This document shows, piece by piece, positions 2,333 to 21,058 of a DNA stretch of 22,698 nucleotides. The position numbers and the translations under genes are program-made. The notes below the pieces were generated by a model. The model was not told the origin of the DNA and did not search any database. It was given only the letters and a program-made list of their open reading frames with translations. Within the stretch, counting starts at the first letter, position 1, and each line of letters begins with the position of its first letter. This DNA comes from a virus. The stretch spans positions 1 to 22,698 of IMG/VR virus record IMGVR_UViG_3300018432_000050. One strand, written 5' to 3'.

Positions 2333-2811
2333 TTTGGGCCCTCATCCGGGGGGGTCTCCTCATTCAGTGGGGTATCGATAACACGACCCTGGTCGTCGTA
2401 CTCCTCGCCTTCATCCTCATCGTCTGGGATCTCGTCACCTGTTTGGACTTTCTCGATCTCTTCGCGGATCTCCGCCTTCGTGCGCCGCGAGTAGGCAGCT
2501 ATCAGCGACAGCGAGAGGTCTTCCATAGCCTCTACCTCTTCAGCCTGATCCATGATCGTATCCACCAGGGCGGTGCTACGAACTTGCCGAGAGTGGAACA
2601 TCCGGGTGGCGCCCCAGAGCATTGCAGAGAGCAGCGTAGGGCCTACCTTGCCGGTGGCGAGGGCGAAGTCGATCTCGGGCTGAGACATTCCGGCTTCTGA
2701 TTCGAGAGCCTTGCGCCCTGCGTTGTTGAACTTGAGCCGGTAGCGTTTAGTCGGCCCGTCGTCAAGGGCCGGCAAGTCGAACGTAACCTCGCCTCGTGTG
2801 TCGTTGCTCAT
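2260..2811 (-). CDS. Tail assembly chaperone (gpG-like)
   Basis: A 183-residue protein starting at ATG 2811 behind GGAG. The N-terminal 105 residues look folded and resemble phage tail chaperones (a DLPALDDG beta start, then helices). The C-terminal 75 residues are an acidic then lysine- and proline-rich linker typical of the region where the frameshift occurs. Lambda G-type proteins bind and protect the tape measure during tail assembly and are not in the virion. It lies between the major tail protein and the tape measure, the conserved place for this gene. It is expected in excess over the frameshift product gpGT. Confidence 0.88.
   Translation of the reverse strand: MSNDTRGEVTFDLPALDDGPTKRYRLKFNNAGRKALESEAGMSQPEIDFALATGKVGPTLLSAMLWGATRMFHSRQVRSTALVDTIMDQAEEVEAMEDLSLSLIAAYSRRTKAEIREEIEKVQTGDEIPDDEDEGEEYDDQGRVIDTPLNEETPPDEGPKDPPPGKEKKPKDSGPLTEAGRAS
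2332..2338 (-). promoter_or_regulatory. Programmed -1 ribosomal frameshift site CCCAAAA
   Basis: On the minus strand the bases read C CCA AAA in the chaperone frame, a canonical X XXY YYZ slippery heptamer. The -1 frame then stays open to the T-domain stop at 1928. A second weaker slippery string, G GGG AAA at 2320-2314, is in the same phase 18 bases downstream and could share the work. A few bases of GC-rich sequence follow, but I cannot name a stimulatory structure with confidence. Confidence 0.8.
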
Positions 2812-2825
2812 GCTTCTCCTTCGTG

Positions 2826-2868
2826 CCTGGATTAATGCCCGCCCCCGATCCAGGTGACAGAGGCGGGC
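2826..2868 (-). other. Two mutually exclusive stem-loops between major tail protein and chaperone
   Basis: Bases 2837-2843 pair with 2862-2868 (GCCCGCC/GGCGGGC). Bases 2826-2832 pair with 2848-2854 (CCTGGAT/ATCCAGG), overlapping the first pairing. No U-run follows on the minus strand, so this is not a standard terminator. It may protect the 3' end of the abundant major tail mRNA or modulate translation of the next gene; this is inference. Confidence 0.45.
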
Positions 2869-2893
2869 GTCTAGGTAGTTGGTAGGTTTGGTG

Positions 2894-3346
2894 TTAGGCG
2901 ACCAGCGTAAGCGGCTCGTTAAGATTGATGGTCAACTCGAACGTTACCGCGGCCTCCTGCTCGCCAGCCTTGGAGAACGTGAGGATGTAGCCTTCCGCCT
3001 CGTACACATCGTCTTCAGAGCCGTCTACGTTCGCACCCGGGAACGTCGAGACCTCCTGAACGAAGACCGGGAGACGGTTCTGGTAAGAGTTGCGTAGAGC
3101 AGCGTGGGTCGCGTCATTGGTGCCGGGCTTCAGAGCCAGCAGCGAGAGGGTAATGGTCCCCGCCTCACGTCCGGGCAGGGTCATGGAGTGGTCGGTGCCC
3201 TTGTGGGACACGTCGATGGCGCCGCGCTCGGACTCGTGGGAGTAATTCGTCTGGTAGGCGACCTGCTGGTAATCAGGTGCGCCCTCGGTACCGACATTTA
3301 CGGTCAGATAAATGTCATTACCAATCATCGCATTGGTTGATGCCAT
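2894..3346 (-). CDS. Major tail (tube) protein
   Basis: A 150-residue protein of the TP901-1/phi13 type major tail protein family, which polymerises into the hexameric tail tube. Recognisable features are the N-terminal MASTNAMIGNDIYLTV, the DVSHKGTDHSMTLPGREAGT segment that contacts neighbouring rings, and a C-terminal beta segment ending AAVTFELTINLNEPLTLVA. Length matches the short members of the family. The start ATG has GGAG 10 bases upstream. An intrinsic terminator lies about 90 bases upstream, and the tail chaperone follows downstream, as in most siphoviruses. Confidence 0.88.
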   Translation of the reverse strand: MASTNAMIGNDIYLTVNVGTEGAPDYQQVAYQTNYSHESERGAIDVSHKGTDHSMTLPGREAGTITLSLLALKPGTNDATHAALRNSYQNRLPVFVQEVSTFPGANVDGSEDDVYEAEGYILTFSKAGEQEAAVTFELTINLNEPLTLVA

Positions 3347-3433
3347 AATGGACTTGCTCCTTTCCTATTGGGTTCGGGGCAAGCTCGGGGCCGGTCTCTT
3401 GGTCGGGTCTCGGCTCCGAGCTCTAGTTGCTGC

Positions 3434-3464
3434 AAAGAAAAAGCGCCCCCAGAAAAGGGACGCT
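3434..3464 (-). terminator. Intrinsic terminator upstream of the major tail gene
   Basis: On the minus strand an 8-bp stem (AGCGTCCC pairing with GGGGCGCT, one G-U) with a 7-base loop is followed by TTTTTCTTTGCA. It lies just after the stop at 3488. Its tail matches the terminator at 3868-3889. Confidence 0.75.
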
Positions 3465-3487
3465 CGTGGACTTCTGTATGGTTGGTG

Positions 3488-3838
3488 TTAGGGCATCTTG
3501 AGAACGGCAGCGGAGACCTCGCCGGGCGTGGCGTCGATGTCCACGAAAACCTTGTTCGAGTCGTCTCCAGGCTGGTTGTACAGGCTGGGCGTGAACGGCC
3601 CAGCGAGCTTCGTTACTCCGGCGGCTATGGTTACCTCCCGCTCGTCCACGTCAAGATCGTCACGGGTTGCCGGGGTCTGGATAGTGACGGTGTGAGATCC
3701 GGCGCCCGTGTTCTTGAGCAGCAGAATCTCCTCTCCGTGATTCACGAAGGACGTTCCGTCGGCGGTCTGTGCGGTACCCGCAGGCAGAACCACCCCCGAA
3801 TCATCTAGGGTTGTAGGCGCTAATAGGCCCCTCGCCAT
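3488..3838 (-). CDS. Small beta-rich virion protein candidate (decoration-like)
   Basis: A 116-residue protein. I chose ATG 3838 because AGGAAGGAG sits 5 bases upstream; an upstream in-frame ATG at 3865 lies inside the terminator tail. The sequence is nearly all beta-type: MARGLLAPTTLDDSGVV, then HTVTIQTPATRDDLDV, a GPFTPSLYNQPGD turn and a C-terminal VFVDIDATPGEVSAAVLKMP. Actinophage genomes often carry proteins with this GPF-P-YNQ pattern among structural genes, generally unannotated. Its own ribosome site and flanking terminators suggest separately tuned, high expression. I infer a decoration or tube-associated beta-sandwich; no function is proven. Confidence 0.6.
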   Translation of the reverse strand: MARGLLAPTTLDDSGVVLPAGTAQTADGTSFVNHGEEILLLKNTGAGSHTVTIQTPATRDDLDVDEREVTIAAGVTKLAGPFTPSLYNQPGDDSNKVFVDIDATPGEVSAAVLKMP

Positions 3839-3867
3839 ACTTTCTCCTTCCTCTTGAGGTTGCAAAG

Positions 3868-3889
3868 AAAAAACGCCCCGAAAGAGGCG
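3868..3889 (-). terminator. Intrinsic terminator directly upstream of the small beta-rich protein
   Basis: On the minus strand CGCCTC TTTC GGGGCG forms a 6-bp stem with a tetraloop, followed by TTTTTTCTTTGCA. The U-run ends 29 bases before the next start codon, so no full promoter fits between. Confidence 0.8.
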
Positions 3890-3922
3890 CCGAAGTTGCT
3901 TTCGATTATTTCGTTTAGGGCA

Positions 3923-4309
3923 TTAGGCCAGCGGCGAAAGCTCCTTTGTAGTTTCAAAGTTACAGACGAAATGAATCCGCCCCGCTTCGTCTGGTGGTAG
4001 ATCCATCGGCGGCCCCAACGCCTTAATCCGTTCGTAGGTCACGCCCTCAATCACCCCGGAGTACCCCGAAAGCAACTGATAAACCCTCTCGGCCTTGCGG
4101 CGTGCGGTAGGGTAGTCCTTAGAGCGAGTAGCAAACTGAAAGCGGGGATACTCCATGATCGCTTCCTGTTGGCCCTTGATGTGGCGTGGCGCCTCACCTC
4201 CGTACCCTCGCAAAGCAGTAGCATCGTCGGGGGTAGTAGGGAGAGAGCCTATCTTCGGCCGACCTTCGCCCTGATCTTCCAGGTAGCTTTGTACTTCTTC
4301 TAAAAGCAT
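3923..4309 (-). CDS. Tail terminator-like protein
   Basis: A 128-residue protein starting at ATG 4309, sharing the A of the preceding TAA stop (TAATG coupling). The pattern fits the phage tail terminator / minor capsid family: N-terminal helix LLEEVQSYLED, a P.FQFATRSKDYPTARRKAERVYQLL core and a C-terminal strand VCNFETTKELSPLA. Tail terminators cap the tube and form the tail side of the neck. Its place after the gp10-like connector and before the major tail protein agrees. A terminator follows the gene. Confidence 0.72.
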   Translation of the reverse strand: MLLEEVQSYLEDQGEGRPKIGSLPTTPDDATALRGYGGEAPRHIKGQQEAIMEYPRFQFATRSKDYPTARRKAERVYQLLSGYSGVIEGVTYERIKALGPPMDLPPDEAGRIHFVCNFETTKELSPLA

Positions 4310-4644
4310 TACACGGCACCACCTCCTGCACGCTGCCCCGGAGTCTTAGGCGTCAGGAATTTCTCGTATTGCTTCCTCTTCGCCTCTTGGAGCAACTGCC
4401 AGTCGTCTTCGTCTATCAACCGGGTAGACTGCAGGCGCTTCCACTGTGCCTCATCTATCAGGTATCCGGTAAGGTGAATGCTCCCGCCTGTAGGAAAATA
4501 AACTAGCTCGACCTCTATGGTCGTCTCTTCCATGCCGGAGTCCACGATCACCCGGCGCTGGTAAGGTACGATTTCACCGTCCACCTTGAGCATCAGCCCC
4601 ACACCAGGCTCGTTAACTACCTCTACGAGCTTGCCGTGGATCAT
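4309..4644 (-). CDS. Neck-region protein of unknown function
   Basis: A 111-residue protein from ATG 4644, with AGG 7 bases upstream. A longer version from ATG 4698 adds 18 residues, overlaps the previous gene by 29 bases and has AAGGA 11 bases upstream, so the start is unsettled. The N-terminal half is beta-rich (KLVEVVNEPGVGLMLKVDGE, then TTIEVELVYFPTGG). The C-terminal half is helical and charged, ending in a flexible GQRAGGGAV tail. I do not recognise the family. Its place between the gp10-like and tail terminator genes suggests a small head-tail joining component. Confidence 0.65.
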   Translation of the reverse strand: MIHGKLVEVVNEPGVGLMLKVDGEIVPYQRRVIVDSGMEETTIEVELVYFPTGGSIHLTGYLIDEAQWKRLQSTRLIDEDDWQLLQEAKRKQYEKFLTPKTPGQRAGGGAV

Positions 4645-4669
4645 TGCGCTACCTGTTTGCTCTCCATTC

Positions 4670-5086
4670 TCAGCCACGCACACCCTTTCTCGCCGCATCC
4701 TTTACCGCATCCTTGTAGCGCGGTTTGTTCTCCATAAACGGCCGCTCTAAGAACTTGTCCCCGGTCCCCGGCGTAGTGTAGTTCTCAATGTCCACCGGGC
4801 CATTCTTGCCCATATGATTAAGCCAGCCGCCTTCGTGCTGGGGGATAATGTACGGCAGACCCTCGTAACCAACCTCTACCCCTAGACCGGGGATAAGCCG
4901 GAAGAAGGCATGAGCTCGGAGATCACTCTCTCGCATCGGCGCGACCCTTTGGCTCTTGCCCTGGAGGTCGGCGCCGATGCGAGGTAACGTCCTCTTAACT
5001 TCCCCCTCGACACGCCCGGGCATGGCCCCCAACTTGGATATAAGCCGGTCCGCTCCGTCAACTCGCAAGGTTAAATTCCTCGACAT
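4670..5086 (-). CDS. HK97 gp10-like head-tail connector / tail completion protein
   Basis: A 138-residue protein resembling the HK97 gp10 family: a helical N-terminus (ADRLISKLGAMPGRVEGEVK), a RVAPMRESDLRAHAF segment corresponding to the family's S/T-L-R pattern, a beta hairpin (GLGVEVGYEGLPYIIPQHEG), and a C-terminal RPFMENKPRYKDAV helix. Such proteins help join capsid and tail. ATG 5086 overlaps the previous gene by 29 bases and has no clear ribosome site. TTG 5068 has AGGA 8 bases upstream and may be the real start, six residues later. Confidence 0.75.
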   Translation of the reverse strand: MSRNLTLRVDGADRLISKLGAMPGRVEGEVKRTLPRIGADLQGKSQRVAPMRESDLRAHAFFRLIPGLGVEVGYEGLPYIIPQHEGGWLNHMGKNGPVDIENYTTPGTGDKFLERPFMENKPRYKDAVKDAARKGVRG

Positions 5087-5867
5087 AGGGTAGGGCCAGG
5101 TGCCGACAATTCGGGTGATACGGCGGCAGGTTCCCGAGAGCAGACGGATACTCGGGATGCGTGCCGCTTATCGAATAGATGTTGTTCTCATACGGTGTGC
5201 ATATGTCGAGGTCGTGGGCGTGCTCTGAAATCTGTACTAGATCAACGCCAACTTCGGCCAGTCGCTCGACGGTTCCTCGAGTGTGCGCCTCTCGCGCAGT
5301 CGTGCGTGCCGCCATCTCCGCGTACTTGGACAGATCCCACTCTCGGCCGACCCTATCGGTAAATCCCTTTATGCCCCGGTCCCTTAAATTGTCCTCGACT
5401 CGGGCGCTACGTTGCGGGCTCGTCTCACCTTGGATGAGGCCCTGCAGCGTCTCTTCCATCGTCGCCTTACGAAACACGTCGTCTACGCGGCGACCCACGT
5501 TGTTTACAGCATCCGTGAGGCGTCCGACAAGCCCCTCAAATAGCGCCCGTGCCGTTGCAAGGTGTGTGCCCCCAAGGCTCCCCGCTGGCTGTCCTGTGCC
5601 TTCCTCGGCCCGCTGCGCCCCGGTCCCATAGGCACTCTTCACTACATCCCACGCCGGCCCTGCTGCGTCCGTGCCCACGGCGCGATTCAGGAGCCTACTA
5701 AGAATTGCTCTTATCTCTGCCTGGCGCTGGCGCCGATAAGCAGATGTGAAGTCAGCGGCAGTAGAGAATGCCGACGCGAGAGCACGCGTAATCTGTAGCT
5801 CGGCTTGTTGAAAAAGAGCAATCAGGCGCAGAATGTCGCGCTCCATTTCAGGGGGCTGGTCCTGCAT
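5058..5867 (-). CDS. Minor capsid protein with MuF-like C-terminal domain
   Basis: A 269-residue protein. Residues 1-180 are mostly helical. The C-terminal 80 contain ARTTAREAHTRGTVERLA, EHAHDLDICTPYENNIYSISG and PPYHPNCRH, the hallmark of phage minor head proteins of the SPP1 gp7 / Mu F class (Phage_min_cap2 type). The conserved His, Asp and Cys residues look like a metal site. These proteins sit inside or at the portal vertex and affect DNA retention or ejection. The start ATG directly follows the stop of the gene upstream. Unusually, it lies after the connector genes rather than between portal and scaffold. No toxin domain is fused to the C-terminus. Confidence 0.82.
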   Translation of the reverse strand: MQDQPPEMERDILRLIALFQQAELQITRALASAFSTAADFTSAYRRQRQAEIRAILSRLLNRAVGTDAAGPAWDVVKSAYGTGAQRAEEGTGQPAGSLGGTHLATARALFEGLVGRLTDAVNNVGRRVDDVFRKATMEETLQGLIQGETSPQRSARVEDNLRDRGIKGFTDRVGREWDLSKYAEMAARTTAREAHTRGTVERLAEVGVDLVQISEHAHDLDICTPYENNIYSISGTHPEYPSALGNLPPYHPNCRHLALPYVEEFNLAS

Positions 5868-6110
5868 TTACCTGGTGTCACCGGTATCTGGATCGTAACC
5901 ACATTCCAGGGCGTGCTCAGTCAGAGCTTGCCCGAGCGCATGAGCATCTTCGGGCACGAGCGGGTAGTTTACAAGCCGCTGCTCATTAACCCCATAGCCC
6001 GGACCAATATTCAGACGAACGTAGCGCCGATCATCCTCGGGCGTAATCACCGCCATTGCAAGTGTGCCCTCCAGCTTGATCTCACTACGCTGTAGCTTGC
6101 CCTCTGCCAT
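5868..6110 (-). CDS. Small protein of unknown function, head-tail region
   Basis: An 80-residue protein. I chose ATG 6110 because AGAGGGG lies 6 bases upstream; starts at 6140 or 6137 overlap the preceding stop and lack a site. Sequence: an N-terminal charged segment, two beta strands (IKLEGTLAMAVITPEDD and YVRLNIGPGYGV), a PLVPEDAHALGQALTEHAL helix and an acidic C-terminus. I recognise no family. It lies between a head closure-like gene and the MuF-like gene, so a structural or assembly accessory role is likely. Confidence 0.65.
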   Translation of the reverse strand: MAEGKLQRSEIKLEGTLAMAVITPEDDRRYVRLNIGPGYGVNEQRLVNYPLVPEDAHALGQALTEHALECGYDPDTGDTR

Positions 6111-15038: not shown

Positions 15039-15271
15039 CCCATCGCCTCCCGAATCTCCCGGTCCTGCCGATCCATCTGCTGTACTTCTAGTTCTTCCAA
15101 CAACTTACCGGCCTCTTTGTTCTGCTCCTTGTACATCTCCGTAAGATCAGCGAGGCTGTACAACTCTCCATAAATCATCACCTGTGACCTACTTCCCTCG
15201 GCCATCCCTAAGCTGTAAGCCGTCAGCAACAGTTCTTCTATCGCCTTCTTAAACTCCGCTTTGCCTTTCAC
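15035..15271 (-). CDS. 78-residue helical/coiled-coil protein of unknown function
   Basis: GTG 15271 has GGAGGT 5 bases upstream and overlaps the preceding stop. The whole protein is predicted helical: AEFKKAIEELLLTAYSLGMA, then SLADLTEMYKEQNKEAGKLL and a charged EELEVQQMDRQDREIREAMG end with heptad spacing. It probably oligomerises. No enzymatic motif is seen. Translational coupling to the two-HTH regulator upstream suggests joint expression. Confidence 0.68.
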   Translation of the reverse strand: MKGKAEFKKAIEELLLTAYSLGMAEGSRSQVMIYGELYSLADLTEMYKEQNKEAGKLLEELEVQQMDRQDREIREAMG

Positions 15272-15723
15272 CCCATCACCTCCCTTACTTCCATAGCCTC
15301 GTTCTCCCGCTTCTGCCTCCGCAACGCCACCACCGTCTCCAAGATCCGCTCCCTGTCCTTAGCTGAAATCCACATGCCCTCTATAGTCTTGCGGACGAAC
15401 TCGAACTCCAAGCCACTAATAAACGCGAACTCCTCGGGGGTCATGTCCAGGTCCTCGAGCACGGCTTTCAGGCCGGGGACCGTGCCGGCGGGGCAGATGT
15501 GCGTACCGGTGCTCTTCTTATGTCTCACAATCACACGCTCGCCATTCTCGGATGCTTCCTCTTTAATGAACGGCAATAATGCCTCCTTGTAAAACTTCCA
15601 CTGGCGGCCTACTCTCCAGGCGGGGATCTCTTCGTCCTGCGCCATTTTGCAGACCGCAGAATGGCTCAAGCCTAAAAGTTTGGCGGCCTCAGCCGCAGTC
15701 AGAACTTGGCCTTGCTCTGTCAC
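15268..15723 (-). CDS. DNA-binding regulator with excisionase-type and XRE-like HTH domains
   Basis: A 151-residue protein. Residues 7-55 (LTAAEAAKLLGLSHSAVCKM, IPAWRVGRQWKFYKEAL) are a MerR/excisionase-type winged helix, with the characteristic W-R-G-x-W-K-F strand. Residues 84-135 (PGLKAVLEDLDMTPEEFAFI, FVRKTIEGMWISAKDRERIL) look like a Cro/C1-type HTH. The linker is short and basic. GTG 15723 has GGAGGT 7 bases upstream and overlaps the upstream stop. It may act at the repeat array upstream or as a lysogeny-type switch or excision factor; no integrase is in view. Confidence 0.78.
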   Translation of the reverse strand: MTEQGQVLTAAEAAKLLGLSHSAVCKMAQDEEIPAWRVGRQWKFYKEALLPFIKEEASENGERVIVRHKKSTGTHICPAGTVPGLKAVLEDLDMTPEEFAFISGLEFEFVRKTIEGMWISAKDRERILETVVALRRQKRENEAMEVREVMG

Positions 15724-15962: not shown

Positions 15963-16162
15963 GCGCTCACCTCCGGTCGAAAGGTGCTCTCAATATCCTC
16001 CCAGTCCTCAGATCCACACTCAGGACACTCCACGGGCCTATCTGCAAAGAACCATCGGTTAATGATGTACGCGCCTCGCTCTCCCCAACCGGCTCCGCAG
16101 TCCTGACAATAGACCGTAACGGAGCCTCTAGGACTATCGCTCTCAAGAATCACTTCCTTCAC
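15959..16162 (-). CDS. 67-residue zinc-ribbon protein
   Basis: GTG 16162 overlaps the stop of the gene before it (GTGA), so I prefer it to the 45-base upstream extension. Two CxxC knuckles, CQDC at 19-22 and CPEC at 46-49, flank a 23-residue beta insert (GWGERGAYIINRWFF). This is a classic rubredoxin-like zinc ribbon. It may bind nucleic acid or a protein partner. It starts the run of small zinc proteins encoded downstream. Confidence 0.72.
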   Translation of the reverse strand: MKEVILESDSPRGSVTVYCQDCGAGWGERGAYIINRWFFADRPVECPECGSEDWEDIESTFRPEVSA

Positions 16163-16590
16163 GCCCCCACCACTTCCTGCTTGATCTCGAAGACCTGCCG
16201 CGCACATTGGATTTTCCCGGTTCGCACGAAAGCCATATCCTGCATAGCCCTCACAATCTGTACCTTATGGCGCCGGATGCCGGCAGCCAGCTCAGGAGTT
16301 AGGTTCTTGCGCGGCCTCGCCCACAGCTTCTCCTCGCCGTCCGAGTTGCAGCGCAGGCCGATGCCACGCTCCGAGAGTTCAACCAGTAGCTCATATATCT
16401 CCTGATCTTGGTATCGGGCCCGGAGTTCCGACCGGATGCCGGGGAGTTCTTCTTCACGTTGGCGGAAGGCTTCGGCTATCTCTTGCGCCACCGCGGCACC
16501 CCGATCAGGCTCCGGGGCCTCTTCTACCTCCGTATCCGGGCCACGTAGCGCGGCCAAAACCTCTCCCTTGGTCTTATTAGTATTAAACAT
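16159..16590 (-). CDS. TubC-like docking-domain protein
   Basis: A 143-residue protein from ATG 16590 with AGGAGG 9 bases upstream. The N-terminal part is acidic and helical. Residues 78-130 (IYELLVELSERGIGLRC, EEKLWARPRKNLTPELAAGI, RRHKVQIVRAMQD) match the TubC N-terminal docking-domain pattern LLxxLxxxGIxLxxx...LTPELxxxIRxHKxxI. That module is known from polyketide and peptide synthases and is also attached to phage and plasmid replication proteins. Here it follows the candidate origin, suggesting a protein-protein adaptor for replication. The role is inference. Confidence 0.68.
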   Translation of the reverse strand: MFNTNKTKGEVLAALRGPDTEVEEAPEPDRGAAVAQEIAEAFRQREEELPGIRSELRARYQDQEIYELLVELSERGIGLRCNSDGEEKLWARPRKNLTPELAAGIRRHKVQIVRAMQDMAFVRTGKIQCARQVFEIKQEVVGA

Positions 16591-16615
16591 TACCAATAAC
16601 CTCCTATACTCGAAA

Positions 16616-16897
16616 GGTGACAGCAAAGGTGACAGACAACGTTTTTTACTGTCACCGCGTATTCCCGATAGGTATGGCGAATTCGTAGAAGCGGTGACAG
16701 CGGTGACAGCAATTTCCCTATTGTTTCCTGTTCTTGCCTTATTTGTCCTATACACCTATGACACTTTCTATTAATTACCTTTTTTTCTAAAATAGGTGTC
16801 ACCGCTGTCACCATGACTAGAATTCCCAATAGATAAGCCAAAAGACCGGTGACAGAAATCCGCATTTGTCTATCACCCACTGTCACTGGCTGTCACC
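16616..16897. repeat. GGTGACAG iteron-like array: candidate replication origin or operator
   Basis: Exact GGTGACAG begins at 16616, 16628, 16693, 16702 and 16848. Its reverse complement CTGTCACC begins at 16649, 16805 and 16890. One-mismatch copies lie at 16796 (GTGTCACC) and 16880 (CTGTCACT). Pairs are spaced 9-12 bases. The block 16693-16709 is an inverted repeat of 16796-16812 (16 of 17 bases) around an 86-base core of 30 percent GC. The array lies between the SF3 helicase and the TubC-like gene and overlaps the helicase's last codons. No convincing gene is present at 16591-16882. Confidence 0.8.
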
Positions 16898-18199
16898 GCC
16901 TAAAGTGCTCTTGAGTCGCACGCCTTGCCACATACGATTCGTATTCGTGGGTTTGTAGACGAACCCAAGGCGCTGCCATTCCTCCTTCATCCGGCTCTTG
17001 CTGAGCGGCGTGTGGCCTGCATTCTTTGCCCAATCCCGGTACCGCTCGTACAGGTACCCGGAGGCGGTTTCATGCTCGGGGCCGACGAAGCATTCCTCGT
17101 CCACGAACTGCGCCGGTAGATCGTTGGAGAACTCCCATTCGGCAGTGGCACTACGCATCTTCTCCGGGAACTCGAAGCCCCCGCGCTCGCTGAGTCGGGT
17201 TAATCCCTCGAGGGCCCAGTTGAGGATGCCGGCGCCTTCGGTCTTGATCAATTCCTTGATCTGCGGATCGCGTTCACCCTTGAGAGCAGGAAACGGAAGG
17301 ATATGAACCCGCCGGAAGATCCCGCCCTGTGCGCTGGCAATGCGCGGGGCTTCGTTCATTGCCCACATAATCTTTGCTATCGGGCGGTAACGTTCGGCGG
17401 CCTTATACTTCCGGTCGATGTTTAGCGGTTCGCCGGAAATCAGCGCGTCGATAACGTGCGTGCTCTTGAGGAAGGACGCGGGTTGCTCGGTGCTGGTGAG
17501 TAGCGTTTTCCCCGGGATGCCCTCCAGGGCAAACGATGAGTTTTCTATCTCGGCCAGTCCCAACGTGCCGGCACGAGGTCCGAGCATCGCCTGGAAGCCC
17601 TCTATAACCGTGCTCTTGCCGCTTCCTTGTGGCCCCTTCAGCCATAGGGCTGTTTCTAGGGATGTGTCCGTAGTCAGACAGTAGCCCGCAAACTCCTGTA
17701 GGAATAGCACCGCATCCGGCACCACCTGATTCAGCACGGCGAGGAACACGTCGGCCGTCGCTGTGGGTTCGTAATCGTAGGTTAAAGCCCCGGTCGCATA
17801 GTCCTCGGGGCTATGATCCCGTAGAATCCTTTTCTCTATTTCAAGCGTCCCGTTCTGACAAACTAGAATCCCCGGGTTCGCGTCCCATATATCGCGCTTC
17901 GTGTAAGTCGTGGCTCTGGCGAGCTTGAGGACGCTGCCCATCAAGTGCCCCGTAACCTTCACGCCCTCGTCACGAGAGCCCTCTAAAACGTCTATCACCT
18001 GGCTCTCGATAACCCCGTCGTCTTCACGCTCCCAAAACCCCGCCCGATAAGCCCACCAATCATCACCGGAGCGGACATGATGCGGGTAGCGTTCCATCCA
18101 GCGGTCCCGGAGCTCATCATGTCCGAGGCCCCCATCCGACTTGCTGGGCTTGGTCTTGATGCGGTCCTCCCACATCTGTCGAGCGGACTTTTCGCTCAT
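16883..18199 (-). CDS. SF3 replicative helicase (D5/P4-type primase C-terminal domain)
   Basis: A 438-residue protein. Walker A is GPQGSGKST at 189-197. The SF3 acidic motif B is near LLTSTEQP, motif C is KIMWAMNEAP and the arginine-finger region is IFRRVHILPF. The region before Walker A contains a D5_N-like segment (FLQEFAGYCLTTDTSLETAL). The C-terminal 90 residues look like a winged-helix DNA-binding domain (LYERYRDWAKNAGHTPLSKS). It unwinds DNA at the phage origin as a hexamer. There is no AEP primase domain, unlike full P4 alpha-type proteins. ATG 18199 overlaps the upstream stop, and its final codons contain the array repeats. Confidence 0.9.
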   Translation of the reverse strand: MSEKSARQMWEDRIKTKPSKSDGGLGHDELRDRWMERYPHHVRSGDDWWAYRAGFWEREDDGVIESQVIDVLEGSRDEGVKVTGHLMGSVLKLARATTYTKRDIWDANPGILVCQNGTLEIEKRILRDHSPEDYATGALTYDYEPTATADVFLAVLNQVVPDAVLFLQEFAGYCLTTDTSLETALWLKGPQGSGKSTVIEGFQAMLGPRAGTLGLAEIENSSFALEGIPGKTLLTSTEQPASFLKSTHVIDALISGEPLNIDRKYKAAERYRPIAKIMWAMNEAPRIASAQGGIFRRVHILPFPALKGERDPQIKELIKTEGAGILNWALEGLTRLSERGGFEFPEKMRSATAEWEFSNDLPAQFVDEECFVGPEHETASGYLYERYRDWAKNAGHTPLSKSRMKEEWQRLGFVYKPTNTNRMWQGVRLKSTLGGDSQ

Positions 18200-18714
18200 G
18201 GCAGCGGCAACTTCTGGAATCGAGACCAGGCGAGATCCGTTTCCTGCTTGCGCTCCGCCTCGGGCTGTACGTGCTCGAGCTCGGGTAGGATCAGATACTT
18301 GAACAGCCGCCGGCGCTTGATCTCGCGCCTCTCCTTCTCCTTAGTCTCGCGGATCTTGGCTTGCCGGTCCTGCTTGCGATACCACGACTCCGGGCGCTCC
18401 GGCAGATCTACGTTGAAGCGGTCTCCGAGCCAGGCGCACGCCATAGCGGGAGGCATATCGTTGAACTTCGCGGCGAGGGTTATAACGTCCCCGCCTTCCA
18501 TGCAGGCGAAGCAATGCCAGAGAGTTTCACCCGCGCTGAAGGCCCCTGAGGTGCCGCCGTTGTGACACAGAGGACACTCCCCTCGCCATCGTCCCCCGGT
18601 CCTGTGCCACTCGACGCCGAGCTCTGGCTGAAGTATCGGGATCGTGACGGCTTCCTTGACTAGATCAAAGCGGCGGCGCTGGAGGGCTGAAGTGGTATTA
18701 ACAATTACCATCAT
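18196..18714 (-). CDS. CHC2-type primase zinc-finger protein lacking a catalytic domain
   Basis: A 172-residue protein from ATG 18714, with GGAG 5 bases upstream and a four-base overlap with the upstream gene. Residues 40-80 carry the DnaG-type zinc-binding domain: GECPLCH (Cys47, Cys50), LWHCFACMEGGD (Cys68, Cys71) and VITLAAKF. The C-terminal half is a basic helix (YRKQDRQAKIRETKEKERRE), then a linker. No TOPRIM or RNA polymerase motifs follow. The domain recognises template start sites in primases; here it probably supplies template recognition to a separate partner such as the SF3 helicase. Confidence 0.82.
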   Translation of the reverse strand: MMVIVNTTSALQRRRFDLVKEAVTIPILQPELGVEWHRTGGRWRGECPLCHNGGTSGAFSAGETLWHCFACMEGGDVITLAAKFNDMPPAMACAWLGDRFNVDLPERPESWYRKQDRQAKIRETKEKERREIKRRRLFKYLILPELEHVQPEAERKQETDLAWSRFQKLPLP

Positions 18715-19388
18715 GACATCTCCAACGGTAGGACTTCTTGAGCGAGGCGTTTGGCGGCTATCTCGCAATACTTCTCTTCTATCTCTATGCCTATGGCTTT
18801 ACGGTTAAGGTTCTTGGCGGCGAGTAAAGTGGTTCCTACACCCATAAACGGATCCAATATGGTTTGGCCGGAGAGAGAGATGTTATTGAGCAGTGTTTGC
18901 CAAGTGCGCGGCGGCTTTGGGCATGGGTGGCCTAGCCGCGGAGGAGGTTCAACAAGGCGGTAAGAACACGGAACTCCCATGACTCGCTTTGATGCATTCT
19001 TGCCGTAATAGAGAATTGGCTGAGCATCAGTATTGCCAAAGGTTTGGAGGCCCACCGCTGCCGGCTGATAAAAAACACCAAAGCTTTGCGCCGCTGGATA
19101 TAAATCTAGGCAACGATTGCCTGGCGTAAGGACAACCGCTGTGGCAGTCTTGCGCAAGGACTGAATAACTGGCACCACAACACCTTCGACGTACACGCGG
19201 TCGTCTATAAATCCACCGGCATAATCACCTTTGCCTCTCGCTACGCCACCACTACGGCCACCCTCAATGCCATAGGGCGGGTCGGTAAGCACAACGTCAA
19301 CGGGCCCAATCTCAGAAAGTACCTCCCGACAATCCCCATGAAATATCGTACAAGAATCGTCCTGGTAGTAAGGCTTTGGCAAACTCAT
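18711..19388 (-). CDS. Orphan DNA methyltransferase (amino-MTase, DPPY type)
   Basis: A 225-residue protein starting at ATG 19388 with GGAGG 4 bases upstream, coupled by ATGA. Motif IV is TDPPYG at 35-40 and the SAM-binding motif I is DPFMGVGTT at 179-187, with HPCPKP at 154-159 between them. Catalytic before SAM-binding motif is the beta-class order of N6-adenine or N4-cytosine methyltransferases. No restriction enzyme is adjacent. It may protect phage DNA or mark it for replication or packaging. The target sequence cannot be read from this. Confidence 0.9.
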   Translation of the reverse strand: MSLPKPYYQDDSCTIFHGDCREVLSEIGPVDVVLTDPPYGIEGGRSGGVARGKGDYAGGFIDDRVYVEGVVVPVIQSLRKTATAVVLTPGNRCLDLYPAAQSFGVFYQPAAVGLQTFGNTDAQPILYYGKNASKRVMGVPCSYRLVEPPPRLGHPCPKPPRTWQTLLNNISLSGQTILDPFMGVGTTLLAAKNLNRKAIGIEIEEKYCEIAAKRLAQEVLPLEMS

Positions 19389-20621: not shown

Positions 20622-20894
20622 CTACATAGCAACCTCCTCCGGTATCGGACTTGGCACGGCCAACCACGAGGGACAATCAGGGTCCGGCGGTGGTGCAGGA
20701 AGTTCTCCGGTAAGGTGCTCGACCCGAACCCCGAGCAGTTCGGCTAGGGCGTCTGCAGTCTCGTCGCGCACGGCGGTCCCGCGGTACTCAGCGTTCCAGA
20801 TTTCGGGGTACGGCACGTCGGTCTGTTTATGGATCATGCGTAGGCTCACGCTGCGCTCTTCGCGGATTCGCTTTAGTTCGGGTATTAGGATCAT
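20622..20894 (-). CDS. XRE-family (Cro/C1-type) transcriptional regulator
   Basis: A 90-residue protein. I chose ATG 20894 because GGAGG sits 7 bases upstream and it overlaps the preceding stop (ATGA). Residues 3-58 are a Cro/C1 HTH: ELKRIREERSVSLRMIHKQT, PYPEIWNAEYRGTAVRDETA and DALAELLGV. The C-terminal 30 residues are proline-rich and probably flexible. It may repress the early promoter. A 52-base gap with no gene separates it from the replication module. Confidence 0.82.
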   Translation of the reverse strand: MILIPELKRIREERSVSLRMIHKQTDVPYPEIWNAEYRGTAVRDETADALAELLGVRVEHLTGELPAPPPDPDCPSWLAVPSPIPEEVAM

Positions 20895-21058
20895 GTAGTG
20901 TCCTCCTTCTCGTCCACGAGCACCCATCCGTCTTCACAGTGGCGCCACTTTTGCCCTACGAGGTCCTCCATACTTCTAGGACGCTCCTCACGATCTATCG
21001 TGTAACCCATCTTCAACAGAAGCATCTCCCCCTCTGAAAGCGTGGTTTTTTGCGTCAC
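20891..21058 (-). CDS. 55-residue protein of unknown function
   Basis: I chose GTG 21058, with GGAGG 5 bases upstream, over TTG 21088 or ATG 21070, which lack good sites. The sequence has a helical start (TLSEGEMLLLKMGY) and a WRHCEDGWVLVDEKE strand pair near the end, with one cysteine. It overlaps the XRE regulator start by four bases and so is co-translated with it. The function is not recognised; it may modulate its neighbour. Confidence 0.6.
   Translation of the reverse strand: MTQKTTLSEGEMLLLKMGYTIDREERPRSMEDLVGQKWRHCEDGWVLVDEKEDTT

Follow-up and report, generated by a model that had tools for sequence, protein, structure and literature searches.

A candidate P4/SaPI-type iteron replication origin directly 3' of a P4-family helicase gene in an uncultured tailed phage

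Among the described replication systems, that of satellite phage P4 is one of the closest to the locus analysed here. P4 carries crr, its cis-required replication region, directly 3' of its alpha gene, with 10 annotated type 1 repeats, and six more of these repeats are located in a separate ori. The repeats mostly read TGTTCACC, with neighbouring copies 9 bp apart and arranged in inverted groups. In PICIs, the origin consists of an AT-rich region between two sets of iterons, 3' of rep, and the pri-rep-ori type of layout was described as unique to these elements (PMC6092414). The C-terminal domain of the SaPI Rep protein recognises iterons that are located immediately downstream of rep, and the isolated C-terminal domain of Cch2 likewise binds repeats downstream of cch2 (PMC7581432). 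The origin of the plasmid pRN1 was described as a stem-loop, which lies directly 3' of the P4-family replication gene and is necessary and, with the replication operon, sufficient; one lethal change in the stem could be rescued by making the stem symmetrical again, and specific binding was not observed (PMC4234260).

The window, which is the whole stretch of DNA that was analysed, is a viral record of 22.7 kb with terminase, portal and major capsid genes. The match to the PBSX-type terminase large subunit falls below the cut-off, while the major head protein matches PHROG 212 at 2.3e-88. The window encodes a helicase with Pfam matches to PF08706 (5.8e-14), PF19263 (1.7e-12) and PF03288 (residues 359-417), of which D5_N and Pox_D5 exceed the Pfam cut-offs. 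The protein also passes the curated profile NCBIfam TIGR01613 (163 bits; cut-off 108.7), which assigns it to the P4-family (SF3/D5) primase-helicases. The AlphaFold2 model of this helicase (mean pLDDT 80) confidently predicts a C-terminal winged helix, with helices and strands at residues 346-429 and a pLDDT of 84-92 over this block. Its nearest solved structure, by profile as well as by fold, is the SaPI5 primase-helicase 7ola. The neighbouring primase-like protein shows a partial match to dnaG (TIGR01391) and no match to a Toprim domain, and the TubC_N-like protein on the other side of the array matched neither NCBIfam nor PHROG profiles. The gene at 15268-15723, about 0.9-1 kb from the array, encodes an excisionase-type HTH protein, which also weakly matches MAD1, the regulator found in a methylation-associated defence system.

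Table 1. Features of the candidate origin region and its flanking genes (window coordinates)
Feature	Position	Strand	Remarks
Iteron array	16616..16897	.	8 exact copies of GGTGACAG and 3 with one mismatch
Octamer pair, 12-bp spacing	16616..16635	+	In the TubC_N-like leader, shortly before the ribosome-binding site
Left inverted pair	16693..16709	+	GGTGACAGCGGTGACAG, 9-bp spacing
AT-rich core between the inverted pairs	16710..16795	.	86 bp, 30.2% GC; candidate DNA-unwinding element
Right inverted pair	16796..16812	-	Reverse complement GGTGACAGCGGTGACAC; 16/17 match to the left pair
Octamer triplet, 10-bp steps	16870..16897	-	Extends across the 3' end of the helicase gene
TubC_N-like small protein	16159..16590	-	Downstream of the array; PF18563, 26.7 bits vs cut-off 26 (borderline)
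P4-family (SF3/D5) helicase, 438 aa	16883..18199	-	D5_N, DUF5906, Pox_D5 winged helix; proposed origin-binding initiator
CHC2 zinc-finger (DnaG-type) primase-like protein	18196..18768	-	Overlaps the helicase start; PF01807, 4.9e-8

The array is built from the octamer GGTGACAG, with exact copies at 16616+, 16628+, 16649-, 16693+, 16702+, 16805-, 16848+ and 16890-, and copies with one mismatch at 16796- (GTGTCACC), 16870- (GGTGATAG) and 16880- (AGTGACAG). An isolated ninth exact copy is found at 2853. The sequence-only reading had counted eight exact copies, all of which were recovered, and two copies with one mismatch, of which there are three. Its description of pairs one helical turn apart agrees with the within-pair spacings of 12, 9, 9, 10 and 10 bp, and the 17-base inverted repeat that it placed around a core of 30% GC was found as described (Table 1). 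In 100 Markov shuffles of the window, no 8-mer of any kind exceeded 5 copies per 300 bp, compared to 8 for GGTGACAG. Over the whole window, 28 matches with at most one mismatch were found against 17.2 expected, a number that was reached in no shuffle. The AT-rich core holds the 60-mer with the lowest GC content of the window, starting at 16734. The array region is intergenic from 16591 to 16882, and to this extent no gene explains the stretch, as had been claimed; the claim does not extend to the copy at 16890, which lies inside the helicase coding sequence, nor to the copy at 16880, which overlaps the stop codon. Because it reaches into the 3' end of this gene, the array is not wholly outside genes. 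A 98-aa open reading frame overlapping the array (16590-16886) gave no PHROG match, and no DnaA-box pattern was matched within 16001-17200.

The locus resembles P4 in its P4-family helicase, in an array that follows the helicase gene directly on the 3' side, in the 9-bp spacing and in the inverted groups around an AT-rich stretch. The words are close but not identical, the CTGTCACC of the window having one T fewer than the TGTTCACC of P4. The two systems further differ in that in P4 a further ori lies apart from crr and combines the same iterons with type 2 repeats, and the alpha protein is a fusion of helicase and primase, whereas the window contains only one array within its 22.7 kb, encodes its CHC2 protein separately and has the structural genes of a tailed phage. 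As in the pri-rep-ori systems of PICIs and SaPIs, the candidate origin of the window adjoins the 3' end of the gene for the proposed initiator helicase and has two sets of iterons around an AT-rich region, and the SaPI5 protein 7ola is the nearest structure. However, the window is no satellite, since it carries structural and large-terminase genes of its own. A similar case is Cch2 of SCCmec, an AAA+ initiator helicase that binds, with its C-terminal domain, repeats situated just behind the cch2 gene (PMC7581432), but it belongs to another helicase subfamily, has AAGTG iterons and is associated with a CCPol-MP primase. The crenarchaeal pRN-family plasmids, such as pRN1 and pHEN7, combine a P4-family primase-helicase with an essential origin directly 3' of it; this origin was published as a stem-loop without iterons. 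Because SaPI iterons differ, the identity of the iteron word does not define the wider P4/SaPI kind, of which the window shows iterons 3' of the helicase gene, two sets flanking an AT-rich region and a P4-type word. Literature searches with the bare octamer GGTGACAG and with the P4 word TGTTCACC found no relevant paper among those listed.

The association of such arrays with helicase genes was studied in viral contigs scanned for octamer pairs alone, from which 213 loci were fetched and classed by the number of octamers per 400 bp; a locus was counted as associated when the 3' end of an SF3-type gene was at most 600 bp from the array. This was the case for 14 of 34 loci with at least five octamers, for 8 of 35 with three or four, and for 4 of 144 with the searched pair alone. 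Arrays with at least three octamers are thus strongly enriched beside SF3-type 3' ends (22/69, against 4/144 for the sparse ones; Fisher p 6e-9), a result that describes the neighbours of arrays and not the frequency of arrays among helicases, because the loci were picked by the octamer. Half of the densest arrays (17/34) are without a recognised SF3 gene, in part as a consequence of cut contigs. By Pfam, the adjoining genes are of the D5, VapE, DUF927 with Cch HTH, NrS-1 and Prim-Pol/DUF5906 types, with AAA_25 in two loci, and the octamer is therefore not limited to one helicase subfamily. A 60-mer among the lowest 2% in GC content of the locus was present in 26 of 38 dense arrays.

Some of these loci stand apart. 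In L008, L165 and L216, the last of which was grouped by sequence only, the octamer arrays lie beside a gene for AAA_25, a RepA-like ATPase, and not beside an SF3 gene. L010 (2977-3433) and L028 (598-1054) share an identical arrangement of 12 GGTGACAG copies, and no helicase was recognised in the available DNA of either. In L139, the C-terminal residues TVTTVTTVTEA of the helicase (2473-5133) are encoded by the iterons themselves.

Loci of VapE-type helicases were fetched by protein, so that the octamer played no part in their selection. Within 600 bp of the gene, a 7-mer with five or more copies was present on the 3' side in 45 of 76 of these loci and on the 5' side in 1 of 75; a second VapE set gave 3' arrays in 35 of 63 loci and 5' arrays in none. 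The sequence-only reading had proposed to search related phages for the same octamer array next to SF3 helicase genes; in its general form, with arrays of any iteron behind related helicase genes, this check is positive in both surveys. At the VapE loci, the 3' flanks (77 kb) contain 38 copies of the octamer GGTGACAG itself, compared to a single copy in the 5' flanks and two in the genes (179 kb), and most repeat-bearing loci have other iteron words, among them TGTCCCAC, GTCCCAAC and GTCCAAC. In isolated phages with D5-type helicases, a significant 3' array was found in only 5 of 13 and a 5' array in one. The latter, Alteromonas phage R9Y2 (L300), has eight copies of CGTTACA 530 bp 5' of its helicase gene, possibly a moved origin.

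In 42 VapE loci, the similarity of iterons correlates with the identity of the winged helix (r 0.75) and with that of the ATPase domain (0.60). When the ATPase domain is controlled for, the winged helix retains a partial correlation of 0.60 (0 of 2000 permutations), and the converse calculation gives -0.26, values that correct for shared ancestry only in part and apply to VapE-type helicases, not to the D5 branch of the window. In VapE loci, the iteron sequence thus tracks the winged helix and not the ATPase domain. Within the VapE motif W[TSG][KR]x[DE]Q[MT]RV, Lys is found with iterons ending in CCAC (11) and Arg with iterons ending in CCAAC (9), with two others, as counted over distinct helix sequences with ancestry not fully corrected. 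At loci outside the discovery of this rule, Arg coincided with CCAAC in 5 of 5 cases and Lys with CCAC in 10 of 12. The pairing of Lys or Arg with the iteron ending may represent a code of protein-DNA specificity. In loci L217-L296 and L334-L399, the residues beside the Lys/Arg position also seem to be paired with TGTCCC vs TGTCACC. From its family, fold and position, we infer that the D5 helicase of the window would read its iterons in the same way.

A multi-site operator for control of the TubC_N-like or the helicase operon, bound either by the helicase itself or by one of the HTH regulators (15268-15723 or 20622-20927), appears improbable as an explanation of the array. It would account for the two octamers in the leader of the TubC_N-like gene, an excisionase-type HTH protein is indeed encoded at 15268-15723, and autoregulation by the origin binder would also fit an origin. 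However, arrays are found again downstream of SF3-type helicase genes that are unrelated and have differing neighbours, and they track the winged helix of the helicase. In addition, the sole promoter-like site in the array region (16796-16823, + strand) is weak and directed away from the flanking genes, and 11 sites with an AT-rich core exceed the usual operator.

Still less probable is that a site for some other DNA transaction, such as a packaging start, arm sites for integration or excision, or a recombination site, is located here by chance. The att arm sites of P4 are likewise short repeats near crr, and the excisionase-like gene is only about 1 kb away, but across the sampled loci the array follows the helicase and not integrase or terminase genes, and no integrase was recognised beside the array of the window. 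Coding or low-complexity repeats without a function in cis are the least probable explanation of all, despite the last copies falling in the helicase 3' end and the octamer arrays of L015 and L192 overlapping long open reading frames and lacking an AT-rich core; the repeats of the window are on both strands, mostly intergenic, with helical spacing and around an AT-rich core. GC skew falls steadily across the array region with no inflection, all genes being on one strand, and supports neither side.

The reading that these comparisons support best is the iteron-type phage origin already proposed from the sequence alone, on account of the P4-family helicase, the P4-like word and the recurrence of arrays 3' of helicases. 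With a probability of roughly 0.85, the array would be a P4/SaPI-type iteron replication origin, or a helicase-loading site similar to P4 crr, that is read by the adjacent helicase. Its reader is likely this helicase, through the predicted C-terminal winged helix, rather than the HTH or TubC-like proteins, a reading that the co-variation seen in VapE-type helicases supports indirectly. In such an origin, the winged helix would bind the GGTGACAG iterons, and the inverted iteron groups would place two helicase assemblies, one on each side of the AT-rich core. The helicases would be loaded as the core is melted at the expense of ATP, and synthesis would be started by the neighbouring CHC2-type primase protein or by host enzymes.

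The design is already known from P4 and the staphylococcal islands; here it occurs with nearly the P4 word, and it is also present in many unrelated phages. This suggests that the layout called unique to PICIs (PMC6092414) is found in many phages too. For the window, a candidate origin is placed on an uncultured tailed phage and tied to a named initiator, while the VapE data provide a testable rule of helicase-to-iteron specificity. More tentatively, and with slightly less than an even chance, phages, satellites, SCC-type elements and archaeal plasmids may have a common system of origin recognition, in which a winged helix of the P4/VapE/Cch type reads short iterons, often with TGTC, directly behind the helicase gene by a residue-to-base code. 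If so, what has been called a stem-loop in the origins of pRN plasmids would consist of iteron pairs in inverted orientation, with a spacing of 9 bp. The stem of pRN1 (L329, 1088-1183) has two TGTCCA words at this spacing, which are inverted around a loop that is rich in AT and includes TGTCCCAC, and pHEN7 (L331) has TGTCACCAC and TGTCACAAC, with TGTCACC words at 9-bp spacing that are inverted around an AT-rich core. Reading the pRN1 and pHEN7 origins as iterons is a lead, not a conclusion; it would cast new light on the pRN1 origin, at which specific binding has never been observed.

Searches of viral and genome contigs recovered no relatives of the window helicase, and the viral and genome collections, searched also through the terminase, contained no relatives with the same flanking genes. 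A blastn search of the array against phages returned chance matches only. An alignment of nine D5 helicases was too divergent to be used in scanning, and when one D5 protein (L196) or one divergent VapE protein (L202) served as the query, nothing but the query itself was recovered. The relatives found by terminase have almost nothing else in common with the window. One of them, L325, carries TGTGACG/CGTCACA iterons at 5790-6080, directly 3' of a DUF927-like gene of 923 aa.
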